Source of the DNA: Armatimonadota bacterium
GTDB lineage: Bacteria > Armatimonadota > Hebobacteria > CAIYQO01
Assembly (NCBI GenBank): GCA_029553475.1
Contig: JAKPKV010000081.1
Coordinates: 1-44,352 of the forward strand
DNA length: 44,352 nt
Reading direction: 5' to 3'
Shown here: piece after piece, positions 2,297 through 21,546 of the stretch
Layout of the letters: each line of letters opens with the position of its first letter
Numbering within the stretch: the stretch's first letter is position 1
Notes under the pieces: generated by a model
The model's input: only the letters and a program-made list of their open reading frames with translations
Databases searched by the model: none
What the model was told of the DNA's origin: nothing
Position numbers and translations under genes: made by a program

Positions 2297-4550
2297 ATTC
2301 GATCTTCATCTTCAGCCGTCGCTCTACACCAAACTCCGGCGCCCGCACCGTCACCGTCACCCGTCCCGGCGTATCGCCGGCGCGGAGGTAGACGGCCGCC
2401 ACCCCGCCCGCCAGCGCGAGGGGTGACGGGCCGATGAGCGTCGCCGGCCCATCCACGTCTACCAATACCGCGGCGCGGCTGTGCGCCTGCACGTTGCCAT
2501 ATTCATCGGTATGGCTGATCACGAGGCGCGTCATGTCGGCGCCGTCGGCGCGCAACGCGGGGTCATCAAGTGAAACGGCCAGCGTGCGCGCATCGTTGTG
2601 CGCGGGAAAACGCTGCTCGGCGACCACCGCATCCCCGACGAGACCGACGAGGTGCAATTCCTGCCAGCTCGGCCCCCACAGCGTGCCCAATCCCGTGCAG
2701 AAGAAGGGCGGGTGCGGGAGGTACGGGAAACGGTCGCGGGCGGGGGTATATTCGCCGCGCAGCTCGCCGCCGATGTAGACCCGCAGGCGCTCGCAATTGC
2801 TGAAGACCACCAGCGGGGCGTCGTGGCCGGCCTTCATCGTCGCCTCGTTCGGGTCAAAGCCCGCCTGGTCGCCCACCTTCCAGCGGGTGGCCGCCCGCAG
2901 CACCGGGCGCACGGCCGGGTCGAGCTGGCTGGCGTAGACGGCGGCGCCCAGCTTCGGCGCGCGGAAGACGTCGCACATGCCCCACGGCTGGATGCTGTCC
3001 ACCGTCACCCAGTCCTGCGAGTGGTAATCGAAGGCGCACCAGCCGATGGCCCCGGCCACGCGCGGGTGGCCATACATGGCGTTGAGAATCTCGGCATGCA
3101 CCATCGCGAAGTTGACCAACACCGCGCTGTGCGCGGTGCGGCGGGCATCGGTGAGCGGGCCGAACTCGGTGATGAGATACGGCGTCACCGGCGGCTCGTT
3201 GATAGTCTGCTCCGGCGGGCGGTAGGCGTAATCGTTGGCGGTGAAGACGTCTTCCAGCAATTCGCTGTTGACCCCCCAGCGCACGCCGCCGGTGGGGCGC
3301 GAGGGGTCCAGCTCCCGCGCCAGCGCGTTGGTGCGCGTGTAAAAATCGTGGTCGTCGGCGGACTCGTTGATGCGCACGCCCCAGAGGATGACGGACGGGT
3401 GGTTGCGGTCGCGGCGGATCATCATCTCCACGTCGCGGCAGGCCAATGCCTTCCACCCCTCGTCGCCGATGAAGCTCCAGCCGGGGATTTCCTCGAAGAC
3501 GAGCAGTCCGATCTCATCGCAGCGGTCGAGGAAATGCGGCGACTGCGGGTAGTGGCTGGTGCGCACGATGTTGCAGCCGAGCTCGTATTTCAAGATATCG
3601 GCGTCCCGGCGCTGCAGGCGCGCGGGCGCGGCGGCGCCGAGATACGGGTAGGTCTGGTGGCGGTTCAGCCCGATCAGCTTCAGCGGCCGGCCATTGAGCA
3701 GGAACGGCCCTTCCCGCGTGAAAACCGCCTCGCGGAAGCCGAAGAGGGTCTCCACTGCATCGGCGGTTCGCCGGCCGTCGAGCAGCACCACCCGCGCCCG
3801 GTAGCGCCGCGGGTCATCCAACTCCCACAACTGGATGCCGTCCAGCCCCTCCAGCGTCAGCGCGATCTCCGCCGTTCCACCGGCAGGCGCCGCGCAGGAC
3901 ACCGGGGCGCTGACGGCGATCCGCTTGTCCTTCAGATCATACAGCTCCAGCCGCGCCGCACCCCGCCAATCAGCTGCCCGCGTGTTGCGCACGGTCGCCG
4001 TCGCCAGCACCGTGTTCCGTTCAGCCAGCGCGTCCGGCGTTCGCACGAACAGCTCATCCAGGTAGCACCCCGGCACGACGCGCAGGCTCGCCCCCCGGTA
4101 CATGCCGCCGAAAGTCTGATAATCCATCACCCGCCCGCAGGGAGGGATGTCGGCATGCAGCCGGGCATCCACGCGCACGGCCACCACGTTGTCCGCTCCC
4201 GCCCGCCGGCGCAGGAAGGGGGTGATGTCCACCGAAAACCCGACGTAACCGCCGCGATGCGTGAAGGCCAGCCGCCCGTTCACGTGCACCGCGGCGACCA
4301 TCATCACCCCGTCGAAATCGAGGAAGACGCGGCCGTCCCCCAGCCCCGCGGGCGTGGGCAGATGCCGCCGGTACCAGGAGACGAACTGCGACCGCCGCTC
4401 GGAAAAGTAGTTCGCCGGCAGCGGCGCGTGCTGGTGCGGCAGTGTGACAGCCGTCCACGCCCGCCCGCGGGGGCGCGCGCCGGCACGGGCGGCGTCATCG
4501 GCGGGCAGGAAGGACCAGTCGCGGTGAAGCGACGTGACGGAACGAAGCAT
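2295..4550 (-). CDS. GH2 family beta-galactosidase / beta-glucuronidase
   Basis: A 751-residue retaining glycosidase. Order: N-terminal sugar-binding jelly roll (HRDWSFLPAD, LPHQHAPLP), immunoglobulin-like sandwich, then the TIM barrel. The barrel carries the GLNRHQTYPYLG block, the acid/base Glu in ILWGVRINES (canonical NES) and the nucleophile Glu in LITEFG. A C-terminal extension of Ig-like character follows (VDVDGPATLIGPSP). I took ATG at 4550: AGGTGA lies 5 nt before it, whereas the upstream GTG at 4559 overlaps that site. No signal peptide, so cytoplasmic. Both catalytic Glu are present, so it should be active on beta-linked galactosides, glucuronides or related sugars; which one cannot be told. 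It is convergent with the DUF5063-like cassette and the LacZ gene. Confidence 0.92.
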   Translation of the reverse strand: MLRSVTSLHRDWSFLPADDAARAGARPRGRAWTAVTLPHQHAPLPANYFSERRSQFVSWYRRHLPTPAGLGDGRVFLDFDGVMMVAAVHVNGRLAFTHRGGYVGFSVDITPFLRRRAGADNVVAVRVDARLHADIPPCGRVMDYQTFGGMYRGASLRVVPGCYLDELFVRTPDALAERNTVLATATVRNTRAADWRGAARLELYDLKDKRIAVSAPVSCAAPAGGTAEIALTLEGLDGIQLWELDDPRRYRARVVLLDGRRTADAVETLFGFREAVFTREGPFLLNGRPLKLIGLNRHQTYPYLGAAAPARLQRRDADILKYELGCNIVRTSHYPQSPHFLDRCDEIGLLVFEEIPGWSFIGDEGWKALACRDVEMMIRRDRNHPSVILWGVRINESADDHDFYTRTNALARELDPSRPTGGVRWGVNSELLEDVFTANDYAYRPPEQTINEPPVTPYLITEFGPLTDARRTAHSAVLVNFAMVHAEILNAMYGHPRVAGAIGWCAFDYHSQDWVTVDSIQPWGMCDVFRAPKLGAAVYASQLDPAVRPVLRAATRWKVGDQAGFDPNEATMKAGHDAPLVVFSNCERLRVYIGGELRGEYTPARDRFPYLPHPPFFCTGLGTLWGPSWQELHLVGLVGDAVVAEQRFPAHNDARTLAVSLDDPALRADGADMTRLVISHTDEYGNVQAHSRAAVLVDVDGPATLIGPSPLALAGGVAAVYLRAGDTPGRVTVTVRAPEFGVERRLKMKIE

Positions 4551-4592: not shown

Positions 4593-4660
4593 CGAAAATA
4601 GCATCCGCGTGTTGGTAGTGCGCCACGCAGCGAAGCGGAGTGGCGCCGATCCGGCCGTAG
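4593..4660. repeat. Dispersed palindromic repeat, copy A
   Basis: The core at 4610-4660 contains GTAGTGCGCCACGC and GGAGTGGCGCC, which can pair, and ends GGCCGTAG. A close copy is at 9465-9531. It lies in the 400-nt gap 4551-4950 between the GH2 gene and the MCE gene. The rest of that gap holds only the GC-clamp repeat at 4778-4843 and no convincing gene. Confidence 0.7.
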
Positions 4661-4777
4661 AGTGCCCGTCATACCTGGCGCCAGCTACGCAGCACTCCGG
4701 CCAGTCCGCAGGGGCGGATTTTGTGGCTCCCGCCCCGGATGTGCATCCAGGGGACGGAAGCCTCGCGAGGCACAACT

Positions 4778-7173: not shown

Positions 7174-9183
7174 ATGCCCGCCACCCAACTGGCCGATCTG
7201 GAAATCCTCCGCGCCCGCCTCTGCGCGGACCGCGACCCCCTCGACGGCGCCGGCTATGCCACGCCCGGCCCGGACGCCGCCGCGCTCATCGCCACGATGC
7301 TGCCCGACGGCTCCTGGCCCGACGTGCGCTATGCCGACGACGACCTGAAAGACTGGGCGGCGGCGGTCCATCTCTCCCGCCTGCGCCAGTTGGCGCGCGC
7401 CTGGTATCCGGACAAGGCGGACGCGGCCCTCCACGCCGCCCTCCTCCGCGGTCTCGACGGCTGGTATGCCCGCGACCCGCAGAATCCCAACTGGTGGTGG
7501 AATCAGATCGGCGCGCCGCTCCTCCTCGGCGAGACGCTGCTCTGCCTGAAGGAGACCTGCGACCGCTCCGCCATTGACCGCGCCGTCCCCGCCTTCACCT
7601 GTCACCAGCCCATCACCCGCTTCACCGGACAGAACCTCGTCTGGACGGCCACCGTGCAACTGTACCACGGCATCCTCACCGATGATCCCGACCGCGTCGC
7701 GCAGGCCTTCGTCCTCATCGGCAAAGAGGTGCGGGTGCTGCCCGGCGAGGAAGGCATCCAGCCGGACATGAGCTTCCACCAGCACGGCAACCTGCTGTAC
7801 GCCGGCGGCTACGGGCAGGGGTTTGTCGCCGACGTCGGCCGCCTCATCGCCATCGCCGCCGGCACGGCGTATGCATGGCCCGCCCTGCTCGTGGATCGCT
7901 TCGCCCGCTACGTGCTCGACGGCTGCCGGTGGATGGTGCGCGGCCGCACCTTCGACCCCGGCGCGGTGGGGCGCGAAATCACCCGCCCGGGGCACTCCGC
8001 CGCGCGTTTCTACGGCGGCCTGCGGGCGCTGGCCGGTTGTGCCCACGCCCGCCAGGCGGAAGCACGGGCCTCGGCTGCCCGCGATCCCGCGGCCGGCGGT
8101 TCACTGGTCACCGGCAACCGCCATTTTTGGTGCTCCGACCTGATGACCCAGCACCGGCCGGCCTACTACCTCTCCGTGCGCGTGCCCAGCCCGCGGGTGG
8201 TCAACGCCGACTGGCCCTGCTGCGGCGGCGAAGGCCGGCTGTGCCACCACATGGCCGACGGCGCCACCGTGATCATGCGCGACGGCGACGAATACCGCGA
8301 TATCTACCCCGTCTGGAACTGGCGCCAGCTGCCCGGCGTCACCGCCGTCCAGCAGCCGGTCTTCGATCCCGACGCCCTGCGCGCCGCCGGCGAGCGCCCC
8401 TTTGCCGGCGGGGCGTCCGACGGGGGCGTGGGCTGCGCGGCGGTGGATTTCGCCCGCGCCGGCCTCTCCGCGAAAAAATCCTGGTTCCTCTTCGACGACG
8501 GGATGGTCGCGCTGGGCGCCGACATCACCGGCGACGCCGACCACCCCGTGCGCACCACCCTCAATCAGTGCCGCTGGCGCACGCCGGCGTACCTGGACGG
8601 CGTGGACGGGCCGCTGGCGGCGGGCACGTATCCGCTCGCGCCGGGCAGCGCCTTCCGCCAGGACGGCGTCACCTACCGCATCCTCGACGGGCAGGGCGCC
8701 CTGACCCTCGGCCCGCAATCCGGCGCCTGGAGCGACTGCGGCGTCGGCCCGGCCGAGCGGCAAACCCTCAGCGTGCTGAATGCCGGGCTGGATCACGGCG
8801 CGCGGCCGCGCGGCGCCGCCTACGCCTACGCCGTGCTGCCCGGCGCCCCGGAGGGCTTTGCCGATGATCCGGCGCGCTTCGTCATCGTGCGGAACGACGC
8901 CGCGCGGCAGGCCGTCTGGCACGCCGGCGACCGCCGCGGCCACGCCGTTTTCTATGAGCCGGGCGCGGTCACCTTCCCTGACGGCCAGCGCATCGCCGTG
9001 GACCGTCCCTGCATCCTGCTCTATCACCCCGGCCCCTCCACCGTCTTCACCGTCGCCCAACCCGAAGGCGGCGACGGCCTCGTGACGCTGAGGCTGGCCG
9101 GCCCGATCACCGCCACCCTCGGCGTCAGCCTGCCGACGGGAGACTATGCCGGCGCCAGCCACACGCTATGCTGGTACCTGTAA
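7174..9183 (+). CDS. Polysaccharide lyase family 8-like protein
   Basis: A 669-residue protein resembling PL8 lyases (hyaluronate, chondroitin AC and xanthan lyases), which cleave uronic-acid polysaccharides by beta-elimination. The N-terminal half is the alpha/alpha toroid with NWWWNQIG at about residue 105. The catalytic His and Tyr sit in SFHQHGNLLYAGGYG near residue 200, and RG(x)4PGAVGREITR carries the Arg. The C-terminal half is beta-sandwich (the central domain with FLFDDGMVALGADI). ATG at 7174 is preceded by GAAAGG; the longer reading from 7081 runs through the leader. No signal peptide is evident, which is odd for a family that is normally secreted. A cytoplasmic role on imported oligosaccharides, or a wrongly short start, are both possible. 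Confidence 0.8.
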   Translation: MPATQLADLEILRARLCADRDPLDGAGYATPGPDAAALIATMLPDGSWPDVRYADDDLKDWAAAVHLSRLRQLARAWYPDKADAALHAALLRGLDGWYARDPQNPNWWWNQIGAPLLLGETLLCLKETCDRSAIDRAVPAFTCHQPITRFTGQNLVWTATVQLYHGILTDDPDRVAQAFVLIGKEVRVLPGEEGIQPDMSFHQHGNLLYAGGYGQGFVADVGRLIAIAAGTAYAWPALLVDRFARYVLDGCRWMVRGRTFDPGAVGREITRPGHSAARFYGGLRALAGCAHARQAEARASAARDPAAGGSLVTGNRHFWCSDLMTQHRPAYYLSVRVPSPRVVNADWPCCGGEGRLCHHMADGATVIMRDGDEYRDIYPVWNWRQLPGVTAVQQPVFDPDALRAAGERPFAGGASDGGVGCAAVDFARAGLSAKKSWFLFDDGMVALGADITGDADHPVRTTLNQCRWRTPAYLDGVDGPLAAGTYPLAPGSAFRQDGVTYRILDGQGALTLGPQSGAWSDCGVGPAERQTLSVLNAGLDHGARPRGAAYAYAVLPGAPEGFADDPARFVIVRNDAARQAVWHAGDRRGHAVFYEPGAVTFPDGQRIAVDRPCILLYHPGPSTVFTVAQPEGGDGLVTLRLAGPITATLGVSLPTGDYAGASHTLCWYL

Positions 9184-9190
9184 CTTCGTT

Positions 9191-9304
9191 TCCGGTCCCG
9201 CTGGGACTGACTGCGCATGGCCGAATACGCACGCGGCAGCATCGTTGCCGCCCCGTATCGCGCGCCGTCCAGCCCTGCCATGCGGAGTCTGTCCCTTCCG
9301 CGCC
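9191..9304. repeat. 114-bp perfect inverted repeat, left arm
   Basis: Positions 9191-9304 are the exact reverse complement of 9666-9779, 114 of 114 bases by direct comparison. The arm begins 8 nt after the PL8 stop codon. Confidence 0.93.
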
Positions 9305-9321
9305 GGAAAGCAAACACCTGC

Positions 9322-9350
9322 TTGACAAAAGAACAAAAGTGTGCTATACT
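9322..9350 (+). promoter_or_regulatory. Near-consensus sigma70 promoter inside the inverted-repeat segment
   Basis: TTGACA (perfect -35), exactly 17 nt, then TATACT (5/6 of -10). It is the best promoter in the window, yet no recognisable gene follows. A 24-codon reading frame starting at 9363 encodes only a basic, low-complexity peptide. The expected transcript start is near 9357 and runs into four stem-loops. Confidence 0.7.
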
Positions 9351-9356
9351 GCCGCC

Positions 9357-9624
9357 TGAACCATGACAAGAGGAAATCGCCCGGCAGCTCCCCGCTTCGG
9401 CGCACCAGCGGCATCACCCCGCATTTCGCAAAATAGCACTTGGCGCGGGGTGATACACGGCCCCACCAAATAGCGCCGTCTGTTGGTAGTGCGCCACGCA
9501 ACAGCGTGGAGTGGCGCCACCCCGGCCGTAGTCATCGCACCGCCGCCGAAAAGAGCATCACTGGGACCGCGTCCCGATAAAATCGGGACGCCTTCACGCA
9601 GCTCGGCCCTCGATGGGCCGAGCT
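9357..9624 (+). ncRNA. Candidate structured small RNA (unrecognised)
   Basis: Inference only. Downstream of the strong promoter are a 10-bp perfect stem (9413-9422 with 9445-9454), the palindromic repeat at 9481-9531, a 10-bp stem with an AAA loop (9569-9591) and another 10-bp stem (9600-9624). Any of the last two could end transcription, although neither has a clear T-tract. No protein-coding frame is convincing. It matches no RNA family I can name. Confidence 0.3.
9465..9531. repeat. Dispersed palindromic repeat, copy B
   Basis: Same unit as 4593-4660. Both begin with an AAATAGC-type stretch, then TGTTGGTAGTGCGCCACGC, a variable loop, GGAGTGGCGCC and GGCCGTAG. The loop differs and still pairs here (CCACGC/GCGTGG), which suggests that the fold is conserved. 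Confidence 0.7.
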
Positions 9625-9665
9625 GCGGGCGCATGTGAGGTAGAGACGGTTCGATGTTCATGCTT

Positions 9666-9779
9666 GGCGCGGAAGGGACAGACTCCGCATGGCAGGGCTG
9701 GACGGCGCGCGATACGGGGCGGCAACGATGCTGCCGCGTGCGTATTCGGCCATGCGCAGTCAGTCCCAGCGGGACCGGA
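9666..9779. repeat. 114-bp perfect inverted repeat, right arm
   Basis: Exact reverse complement of 9191-9304. The enclosed interval of 361 bp carries the promoter and stem-loops. From 9780 to 10039 no further gene was recognised. A reading frame from GTG 9815 runs into the glycosyltransferase, but its first 75 codons look non-coding. Confidence 0.93.
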
Positions 9780-10026
9780 GATGACGCCTTGGCGTCACCC
9801 ACTCGAGAGGAACAGTGAGCCGTCTGGGCTTCGACCGGGCCCGATTTATGCTCTTTGCCAACGTGCTATTGCTCTGGTGGGCTGTGCATCGGCAGGCTTC
9901 CGTCCCCGCGGATTGCCCGGATCGGGCCGACCGACCGGATACCGCGCAACGCGGGAGCCATTTGGCAAAGTGCATGAATCGGGATCACCAAACGTCCCCG
10001 TTCCCCGCACCCCCGCCAATTCCGAG

Positions 10027-10039: not shown

Positions 10040-11092
10040 GTGCGCATTCTCATCCTCTCACATCGGTATACCGTGCACGTGCGGCGCTGGCACGAGGGGT
10101 TGCGCGGGCGCGGGCTGCACGTGCGGGTGCTGGTGCGCGCGGGGGAAGGCGCCCGCGAGGTATACGCGCCGCCGGCGTGGGCGGGGCGGTGCGCGCCGCT
10201 GCGCAAGGGCTGGCAGGCGCTGGCCTTCCTCTGGCTGCTGCTCACCTTCCGCCCGCGGGTGCTGCATCAGCACTGGTTCGAGGTGCCCCGGCTCGCGCGC
10301 CTCTTCCCGCGCCGACTGCCGCTGGTGATCTCGGTGTGGGGCGCCGACATCATTCGCGACTGGTCCACGGCCGAGCGCGCCGCCGCGCGCCGGTACGCCG
10401 GCCGGGCGGCGGCGGTGCTGGGCACGTCGCGATTCCTGGCGGATGCCGCCGCCGATGTCCTGGCGCGCCCCGTCGAGCGCCTGTATTGGGGCGTGGACGT
10501 GCGTCGGTTTTCTCCCCGCCCCGCCGAGCCCCACGCGGACTTCCGCGTCGGCTTCTTCAAGCACCTGCTGCCGAAATATGCGCCGGATCTGGTGGTGGAA
10601 GCCTTCGCCACGGTGCACACCGAGATACCGACGGCTTCACTCCATCTCTACGGCGATGGCGAGCGGCGCGACGCGCTGGCGCGGCAGGCCGCGGCGCATG
10701 GACTGGCGGACGCCGTGTATTTTCACGGCAAAATCCCTTACGAGGCCGTGCCGGCGGCGATGGCGCAGTGCGACATCATCGTGATGCCGAGCCGCGATGC
10801 CTCCGAAACCCTCGGCATTGCGGCCCTGGAGGCGCAGGCGATGGGCGTGCCCGTCATCGCGACGGAGATCGGCGGCATCCCGGAAGCGGTACAGGATGGC
10901 GTGGGCGGGCTGCTGATTCCCCCCGGCGACGCGGAGGCGCTGGCGGCGGCGCTGCTGCGGCTGGCGCGCGACTCGGCGCTGCGCGCCCGCCTGGGTCGGC
11001 AAGGCCGGGCGTTCATCGCCGCGCATTTCGACTGGGAACGCACCCTCGATGCCATGGAAGCCGTCTACCGGCGCGTGGTCGGCGGCACGTAA
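10040..11092 (+). CDS. Family 4 glycosyltransferase (GT-B fold)
   Basis: A 350-residue cytosolic or membrane-peripheral enzyme that transfers a sugar from a nucleotide donor, probably to a lipid-linked or surface glycan. The N-terminal half begins RILILSHRYTVHVRRW and contains LHQHWFEVPRLAR, typical of the acceptor domain. The C-terminal half has GFFKHLLPKYAPDLVVEAF, LHLYGDGERRDAL, VYFHGKIPYEAVP and the donor-site block MPSRDASETLGIAALEAQAMGVPVIAT, in which the E(x)7E motif is present. GTG at 10040 was chosen because homologues start with RILxLSxxY and a -10 box sits 7 nt before it; a GTG at 9815 is in frame but adds 75 unlikely residues. Next to a methyltransferase and a flippase, so surface polysaccharide synthesis is likely. 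Confidence 0.88.
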   Translation: MRILILSHRYTVHVRRWHEGLRGRGLHVRVLVRAGEGAREVYAPPAWAGRCAPLRKGWQALAFLWLLLTFRPRVLHQHWFEVPRLARLFPRRLPLVISVWGADIIRDWSTAERAAARRYAGRAAAVLGTSRFLADAAADVLARPVERLYWGVDVRRFSPRPAEPHADFRVGFFKHLLPKYAPDLVVEAFATVHTEIPTASLHLYGDGERRDALARQAAAHGLADAVYFHGKIPYEAVPAAMAQCDIIVMPSRDASETLGIAALEAQAMGVPVIATEIGGIPEAVQDGVGGLLIPPGDAEALAAALLRLARDSALRARLGRQGRAFIAAHFDWERTLDAMEAVYRRVVGGT

Positions 11093-20679: not shown

Positions 20680-21546
20680 TCATGGCGTCCGCCGCCCGCG
20701 GCGTTTCTCGCGCAGCACCCACTGTAGGCGCAGCCAGATGCCCAGCCTCGGCGCCCAGCGCAAGAGGGCGGGCATGGCGGGCGCGTAATGCTTCTCAAAA
20801 AAAAGGCCCATGCTGTGATGGTGCGCGCGCACCATGCGCTCCACCGCCTGGTCGGACGACCGCCCGATGACATGGGTGATCACCGCGTCCGGGAAATAGA
20901 GCACTTTCCAGCCCGCCCGCCCGGCGCGGTAACACCAGTCCACGTCCTCGCAATACATGAAGAAGCTTTCATCCAGCAGGCCGATCTGCTCCAGCACGGC
21001 GCGGCGGATGCAGAGCGCGGCGCCGGACACCCAATCCACCGCGGCCACCGACGCGTGATCGAAATCCGTCATCAGATAATCGCGCACCCGGGCGTTGCCG
21101 GGAAACAGCCTGCCCAGCGCGCCGTTGCGAAAGAGCCCGGTGGCGACGGTGGGAAAGCGTCGGCAGGAATACTGCACGCTGCCGTCGGGATTGAGCAGTT
21201 TTGCGCCGCCGATGCCCGCCTCGGGATGCGCCTCCATGCCCGCCACCAGCGCGTCCAGCGCGCCCGCGTGCACGCGGGTATCGGGGTTGAGCAGCAGCAG
21301 GTACTCGCCCGCGCACTGGCGCAGCGCGACGTTGTTCGCGTGGGCGAAGCCGCGGTTCTCCGGGTTGCGCAGCAGGCGAACGTGGGGGAACTCCGCCGCC
21401 ACCATCTCCGCGCTGCCGTCCGTCGAGGCGTTATCCACGACGAAGACCTCCAGCGGCGTTTGCGGCGCGCCGCCGGGCAGCGAGGCCAGGCAGCGCCGCA
21501 GGTCGTCGCGCGTCTGCCAATTGACAATCGAAATCGAGAGCACCAT
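20680..21546 (-). CDS. Family 2 glycosyltransferase (rhamnosyltransferase-like)
   Basis: A 288-residue GT-A enzyme. Motifs in order: LSISIVNWQTRDDLRRCL, EVFVVDNASTDGSAEM (nucleotide binding), PENRGFAHANNVAL, LLLNPDTRV (metal-binding acidic pair), then WVSGAALCIRRAVLEQIG and the catalytic acidic DESFFMYCEDVDWCYRAG. This is the WbbL-type arrangement found in enzymes that add rhamnose or similar sugars to lipid-linked glycans; the actual sugar is unknown. The start at 21546 is 6 nt after the Trm112-like stop, so the two genes are translated together, followed by the histidine kinase. Confidence 0.9.
   Translation of the reverse strand: MVLSISIVNWQTRDDLRRCLASLPGGAPQTPLEVFVVDNASTDGSAEMVAAEFPHVRLLRNPENRGFAHANNVALRQCAGEYLLLLNPDTRVHAGALDALVAGMEAHPEAGIGGAKLLNPDGSVQYSCRRFPTVATGLFRNGALGRLFPGNARVRDYLMTDFDHASVAAVDWVSGAALCIRRAVLEQIGLLDESFFMYCEDVDWCYRAGRAGWKVLYFPDAVITHVIGRSSDQAVERMVRAHHHSMGLFFEKHYAPAMPALLRWAPRLGIWLRLQWVLREKRRGRRTP

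Follow-up and report, generated by a model that had tools for sequence, protein, structure and literature searches.

The region at positions 9191-9779 of the analysed window (the whole stretch of 44,352 nucleotides) raises the question of what two identical arms in inverted orientation, enclosing a near-consensus promoter and several hairpins, represent between two genes. Positions 9191-9304 and 9666-9779 are reverse complements with 114/114 identity (100% over 114), as the initial annotation had claimed; the match extends to 119 nt at 98%, and 361 nt separate the arms. The inverted repeat is located in an 856-bp gap between a polysaccharide lyase family 8 (PL8) gene (7174..9183, + strand), whose stop codon lies ~8 bp before the left arm, and the next downstream gene, which encodes a GT4-type glycosyltransferase (10040..11092, + strand, codon-usage gene call). 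Gene calls were made with a simple codon-usage script written for this analysis, which selected no protein-coding frame between 9184 and 10039, the mechanical open reading frames that exist there being unsupported; this agrees with the earlier view that the repeat encloses no coding frame. RNA folding of the whole 9191-9779 unit gave -436 kcal/mol with a z of -27 versus shuffled sequence, which is far beyond chance, and the centroid fold supported the four stem-loops previously noticed inside it, as hairpins at approximately 9411-9456, 9491-9508, 9560-9590 and 9597-9627.

Comparison of the 589-bp unit with the window's own genome (5.27 Mb, a draft in 194 contigs) yielded 88 DNA matches, which resolve into several families meeting at this locus: A, which forms the arms, the promoter-hairpin cassette P-H, C and E, with D just outside. 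We propose, with a probability of roughly 0.8, that two REPIN-like A elements of a RAYT system, in convergent orientation, make up the 114-bp inverted repeat and enclose a mosaic of dispersed repeats.

Each arm is one copy of the dispersed extragenic palindrome A, ~116 bp in length, in which the core GACWGACTSCGCATGGC occurs twice in inverted orientation, as a rule at a distance of 72 bp, with a variable spacer in between. The left arm (9193..9308, + strand), delimited by the A-family HMM and an alignment of 29 copies, contains the core GACTGACTGCGCATGGC at 9205..9221 (+ strand) and, 72 bp from it, the inverted core GACAGACTCCGCATGGC at 9277..9293 (- strand), and folds into a single hairpin of -34.8 kcal/mol (DNA parameters). 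The right arm (9664..9777, - strand) is an inverted A whose sequence is identical to that of the left arm, with cores at 9677..9693 (+ strand) and 9749..9765 (- strand, 72 bp from its partner). In the 29 aligned copies, ~30 conserved bases at each end, mutually complementary and each including a core, surround a variable centre of ~45 bases. The feet of A read CGGTNCC / CCGGTACC or near, and a GTAG (or CGTC) tag at the foot was absent from the alignment.

Copy numbers were derived from searches together with fetched loci. Exact cores numbered 61 in the window's own genome and 14, nearly all of the TAC form, in a sister genome of the same genus (a fragmented draft, 78% complete); none was found in six more distant genomes from other members of the family, class or phylum, and the reversed control pattern of the core had no match. 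Close core pairs in the window's own genome were convergent in 13 of 17 cases, ten of these being exactly 72 bp apart. The search of this genome for other copies of the arms was productive, with ~32 copies of A identified in the fetched loci, so that A is a moderately abundant, dimer-forming family. None of the 32 copies lay inside genes predicted by the simple codon model, 11 of 32 had a gene 3' end no more than 30 nt away, and none had a 5' end that close. One copy, at L014:4249-4524, is broken by another palindromic insert (AGAAACTGTC...GACAGTTTCT).

The A family was not detected in the sister genome at the sensitivity used. The lyase gene of the sister genome has no A at its 3' end and is followed by a different gene, which shows absence of A rather than insertion; neither target-site nor empty-site proof of A insertion was obtained.

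The PF01797 (Y1 transposase) domain occurs ten times in the window's own genome and five times in the sister genome. One of these occurrences, above cut-off at C131:44392-44718 (locus L193), belongs to a RAYT gene whose open reading frame (2415-3131 of the locus) is bracketed by A at 2167-2264, 151 bp upstream, and by an inverted A at 3257-3365, 126 bp downstream. Between A and the gene, on both sides, lies a palindrome related to A, designated B, with the cores GACAGACACCGCATTAC and GACTGACTGCGCATTAC; the order is thus A-B-gene-B'-A', with one core common to the outer A pair and the inner B pair. The orthologue of this RAYT gene in the sister genome (L199) is bracketed by B pairs alone. The L193 translation has the Y1 domain with the HUH motif NHVHL, plus YIERNP, and matched NCBIfam REP_Tyr_transpos (E 3e-19; 69 bits, below the curated cut-off of 80) and the solved TnpArep, PDB 4er8 (E 0.0013).

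With ~32 A copies in 5.27 Mb and ten such genes, a chance bracket of A on both sides of one of the Y1 genes would be very unlikely, at a rough estimate 1e-3 even within intergenic DNA. The spacers differ between the two A copies flanking the RAYT gene, which indicates that this pair is not a recent copy. Because inverted pairs of A and of its relative B surround the RAYT gene, A appears to be a REPIN-like, RAYT-associated terminal inverted repeat of a TIRtron-type system lacking the GTAG tag.

Other Y1 genes of the two genomes have unrelated multicopy repeats of their own at their flanks. Those at L189, L191 and L196, and a second group at L192, L197 and L198, have their own multicopy palindromes, of the CCCCGAAGGGG or the CCCAGGGCGCTGCCCTGGG type by group; with these two further groups, several such systems coexist in the genus.

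Alternatively, A could be the MITE of a conventional insertion sequence of DDE type, with its place beside the RAYT gene coincidental. Such an origin would account for the ~30-bp conserved complementary ends, the variable centre and the dispersed, extragenic distribution, and MITE-like elements do exist in these genomes, including one with CAATACTGTTGC ends that is inserted in several P copies. However, the RAYT gene is bracketed by inverted pairs of A and of B, its orthologue in the sister species also has B at either side, and an unsystematic look turned up no DDE transposase linked to A, which makes a DDE-type origin improbable. The suggestion in the initial annotation of a MITE or other mobile element was right in spirit, in that A is a miniature dispersed palindrome flanking a RAYT gene.

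The nearest published kind to the A system is that of the TIRtrons (TIRYT), in which long, sometimes self-complementary terminal inverted repeats flank RAYT-like genes and form moderately abundant families, often as close inverted dimers, without GTAG (PMC3733652). Like these repeats, A brackets a RAYT gene as an inverted pair, forms dimers and lacks the GTAG tag. Its consensus foot AGGGACAG has a single mismatch to the TIRtron motif GGGGWSAS (PMC3733652). Unlike in TIRtrons, the outer A and the inner B share one core here, and two A elements bracket a non-coding promoter cassette. TIRtrons were found in other bacteria, including Acidobacteria and Stenotrophomonas, with Armatimonadota not mentioned in the text (PMC3733652), and a search for literature linking Armatimonad- with 'repetitive extragenic palindromic' found none.

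The REPINs and RAYTs of Pseudomonas fluorescens SBW25 likewise combine an inverted core pair, a variable hairpin-forming spacer, an extragenic position and a link to a RAYT (PMC3116915). The first residues of the two 16-mers in the GI REPIN of SBW25 are 71 bp apart (Bertels and Rainey, PMC3116915), compared with 72 bp by the same measure in A. In contrast to the SBW25 REPINs, A has no GTAG and a different core, occurs in tens rather than hundreds of copies, and whole A elements occasionally pair around cargo, which is a second-order pairing. The BIMEs and REPtrons of Escherichia coli are also intergenic inverted palindrome pairs, adjoining the RAYT gene (PMC8266576), whereas the E. coli REPs are 29-37 nt long, GTAG-tagged and bulged, compared with ~116 bp for A. 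The A system is best taken as a member of the known RAYT-repeat kind, of which the composite with promoter cargo may be a variant.

The junction between A and P is identical at five loci (the window, L013, L017, L018 and L020), its left border falling on the outer boundary of A, and an interrupted version is found at L014. Locus L018 (C4:59792-60418) is a second full A...A' composite, with both arms and with the same inner junction to the right arm as in the window (AGACGGTTCGATGTTCATGCT; 9640..9665, + strand). The L018 arms differ mutually at ~4 positions, and both differ from both window arms at 6 shared positions. Because the composites share an ancestor, yet arms are more alike within each composite than across composites, the comparison points to concerted evolution within the locus, of which the window composite, with no difference between its arms, would be the extreme case. 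Gene conversion or inverted copying would explain such homogenization, and the earlier suggestion of recent duplication or gene conversion of the arms is supported by this within-composite resemblance in the window and L018. Close A pairs at L034, L039, L045 and the RAYT locus are likewise convergent and are not near-identical.

Between the arms is a mosaic of other dispersed non-coding repeats, with the P-H cassette foremost, in which nesting makes the borders of the modules uncertain. Module C (9468..9549, + strand) is a dispersed intergenic repeat with a further copy at 4598-4661, and module E (9550..9594, + strand) is a hairpin that is also present beside A in L013. A near-perfect hairpin, GCAGCTCGGCCC-TCGAT-GGGCCGAGCTGC, was located by the centroid fold at 9597..9627 (no strand assigned). 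Outside the right arm, the flank AGCCGTCTGGGCTTCGACCGG (9818..9838, + strand) has a reverse complement that adjoins the A copy of L013, and module D (9840..9983, no strand assigned), a member of a dispersed palindrome family of ~144 bp, takes up part of the stretch from the right arm to the glycosyltransferase gene.

The P module (9311..9381, + strand), defined by an HMM, a covariance model and alignments, comprises a conserved upstream CAAAC, the promoter and the conserved start of a presumed transcript. The promoter, TTGACA-N17-TATACT with an extended -10 (TG) (9322..9350, + strand), matches the consensus at 11/12 positions, and the expectation from shuffled versions of the 1.3 kb region was 0.2 promoter-like sites. 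The initial annotation had called it the best promoter in the window; the promoter itself stands, but "best" is slightly too strong, since a site at 21521 (TTGACA-17-CATAAT) also has 11/12 consensus positions, without the TG. P is followed by the hairpin H1 (9411..9456, + strand), whose consensus stem, TATCACCCCGC/GCGGGGTGATA, is almost invariant between copies.

Covariance-model searches with the P-H cassette (window 9307-9462) gave ~45 matches in the window's own genome and ~100 in the sister genome, counts that include partial matches and opposite-strand readings of the same hairpin. In 47 non-redundant P copies, the hexamers average 1.41 bits per position versus 0.78-0.87 elsewhere, any other placement of the 6-17-6 template gives a lower score, and 48 of 57 P copies retain the 17-bp spacing. 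Conservation of this form is what selection for promoter function would leave. The orientation of P to neighbouring genes in the two genomes is random (39 co-directional, 31 opposed), and on this ground P as the promoter of a gene regulon was rejected. A LexA-like or other operator in the P spacer, sought by eye, was not kept in all copies, and a link of P to the IS200-like transposase of L186, from which one copy lies 128 bp away on one side only, was taken as chance.

No covariation that would support a structured RNA was found in H1; the invariance of the stem without compensatory change indicates that the sequence, not just the pairing, is kept. A search of Rfam over the whole window and a comparison of the composite with plasmid and phage collections gave no match, and no known family was found for the P-H cassette. 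Scanning a genome collection with the H1 hairpin pattern returned the sister MAG UR.bin144 and one match in Deltaproteobacteria, which is probably due to chance. Three sets of orthologous genes have H1 in front of them in both species (L106/L078, L045/L104 and L017/L096). It is most likely that P yields short structured transcripts. The mobile non-coding RNA element suggested initially is partly borne out, in that the promoter-hairpin cassette is a dispersed family of its own; the RNA would be its predicted product.

Several further arrangements of these modules were observed. At L106:2343-2392 and L078:1950-1999, H1 with a P-like promoter is located 21-22 bp before an orthologous DNA methyltransferase gene. 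A MITE-like insert with the ends CAATACTGTTGC/GCAACAGTATTG interrupts P just after the -10 box at L088, L085, L104 and L057, and the presence of ATACTGCCGC-like sequence on both sides of it suggests that the insert may target the P promoter. Dispersed hairpins at L051, L081, L076, L023 and other loci have the loop CATTTTGCGAAAATGCAC and the stems GTTACCCCC/GGGGGTAAC, followed by repeated GGGGGGTAAC, and share the loop design of H1. Outward-facing pairs of P modules, 12 to ~325 bp apart, are found at L092, L151, L043, L039 and L097.

The abundance of P-H in both genomes (~45 and ~100 matches), the hexamers as its best conserved part, the 17-bp spacing in 48/57 copies, the nearly invariant H1 stem and the three cases of H1 before orthologous genes could also be taken to mean that P-H is the real unit, a genus-wide set of genes for small non-coding RNAs, each under a promoter of its own, to which the A arms are incidental. 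This reading leaves the inverted repeat unexplained, and the lack of covariation for an RNA structure and of an Rfam match speak against it as well; we regard it as very unlikely. Most P copies are without A, so P-H is an independent layer rather than a full alternative to the pair of A elements.

The initial annotation also considered an invertible DNA switch, in which recombination between the arms would flip the promoter toward the glycosyltransferase or the lyase side. The arms are perfect over 114 bp and enclose a near-consensus promoter, RecA-dependent inversion over 114 bp is physically possible, and inversion by homologous recombination between the identical arms may occur. However, none of the scanned window genes showed a recombinase or invertase domain, the orientation of P to genes is random (39 vs 31), and arms and promoter both belong to dispersed families; as copies of a dispersed repeat, the arms form neither a unique invertible segment nor a dedicated pair. 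In addition, a flipped promoter would face the 3' end of the lyase gene, which is co-directional and upstream and would therefore not be driven by it. We regard the switch as highly improbable. A misassembly of the arms, or of the direction of the 361-bp interior, from short reads over a multicopy repeat, as a draft of 194 contigs and the many sister-genome repeat copies at contig ends might suggest, is scarcely credible given the same A...A' layout at L018 with private differences in both arms and the assembly of A copies with unique flanks at many further sites.

Returning to the convergent pair of A elements, A is probably copied or mobilised in trans by the RAYT on contig C131, of which A, with B, would be the substrate population, processed as single-stranded hairpins in the manner of TnpAREP (PMC8266576). 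The P-H cassette was probably joined to one A at a fixed point and the joint unit then copied to several loci, two of which keep A at both ends; later homogenisation of the arms within each composite would be explained most simply by gene conversion or inverted copying. REP hairpins near gene ends have been proposed to protect or end the messenger, and the A hairpin ~8 bp past the lyase stop codon, where REPs are commonly found, may act similarly. It is conceivable, if rather unlikely, that A pairs are the ends of composites carrying a transcribed, self-promoted non-coding cassette, in which case the RAYT would distribute sigma-70 promoters and hairpin RNAs between the genes of this Armatimonadota genus.

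RAYT systems are considered to be domesticated transposases that maintain tiny palindrome populations, and most of the known examples come from Proteobacteria and a few other phyla. The P-H cassette, with over a hundred matches of a near-consensus promoter in random orientation to genes, had no counterpart that we could find. A RAYT system with a clear core, a fixed spacing and gene-flanking copies is now seen in Armatimonadota, and the arms evolving in concert suggest that larger units can have whole palindromes as their ends. One transposase with both related repeat types, A and B, together with a sister species lacking the A expansion, offers a natural comparison of how such a population starts.
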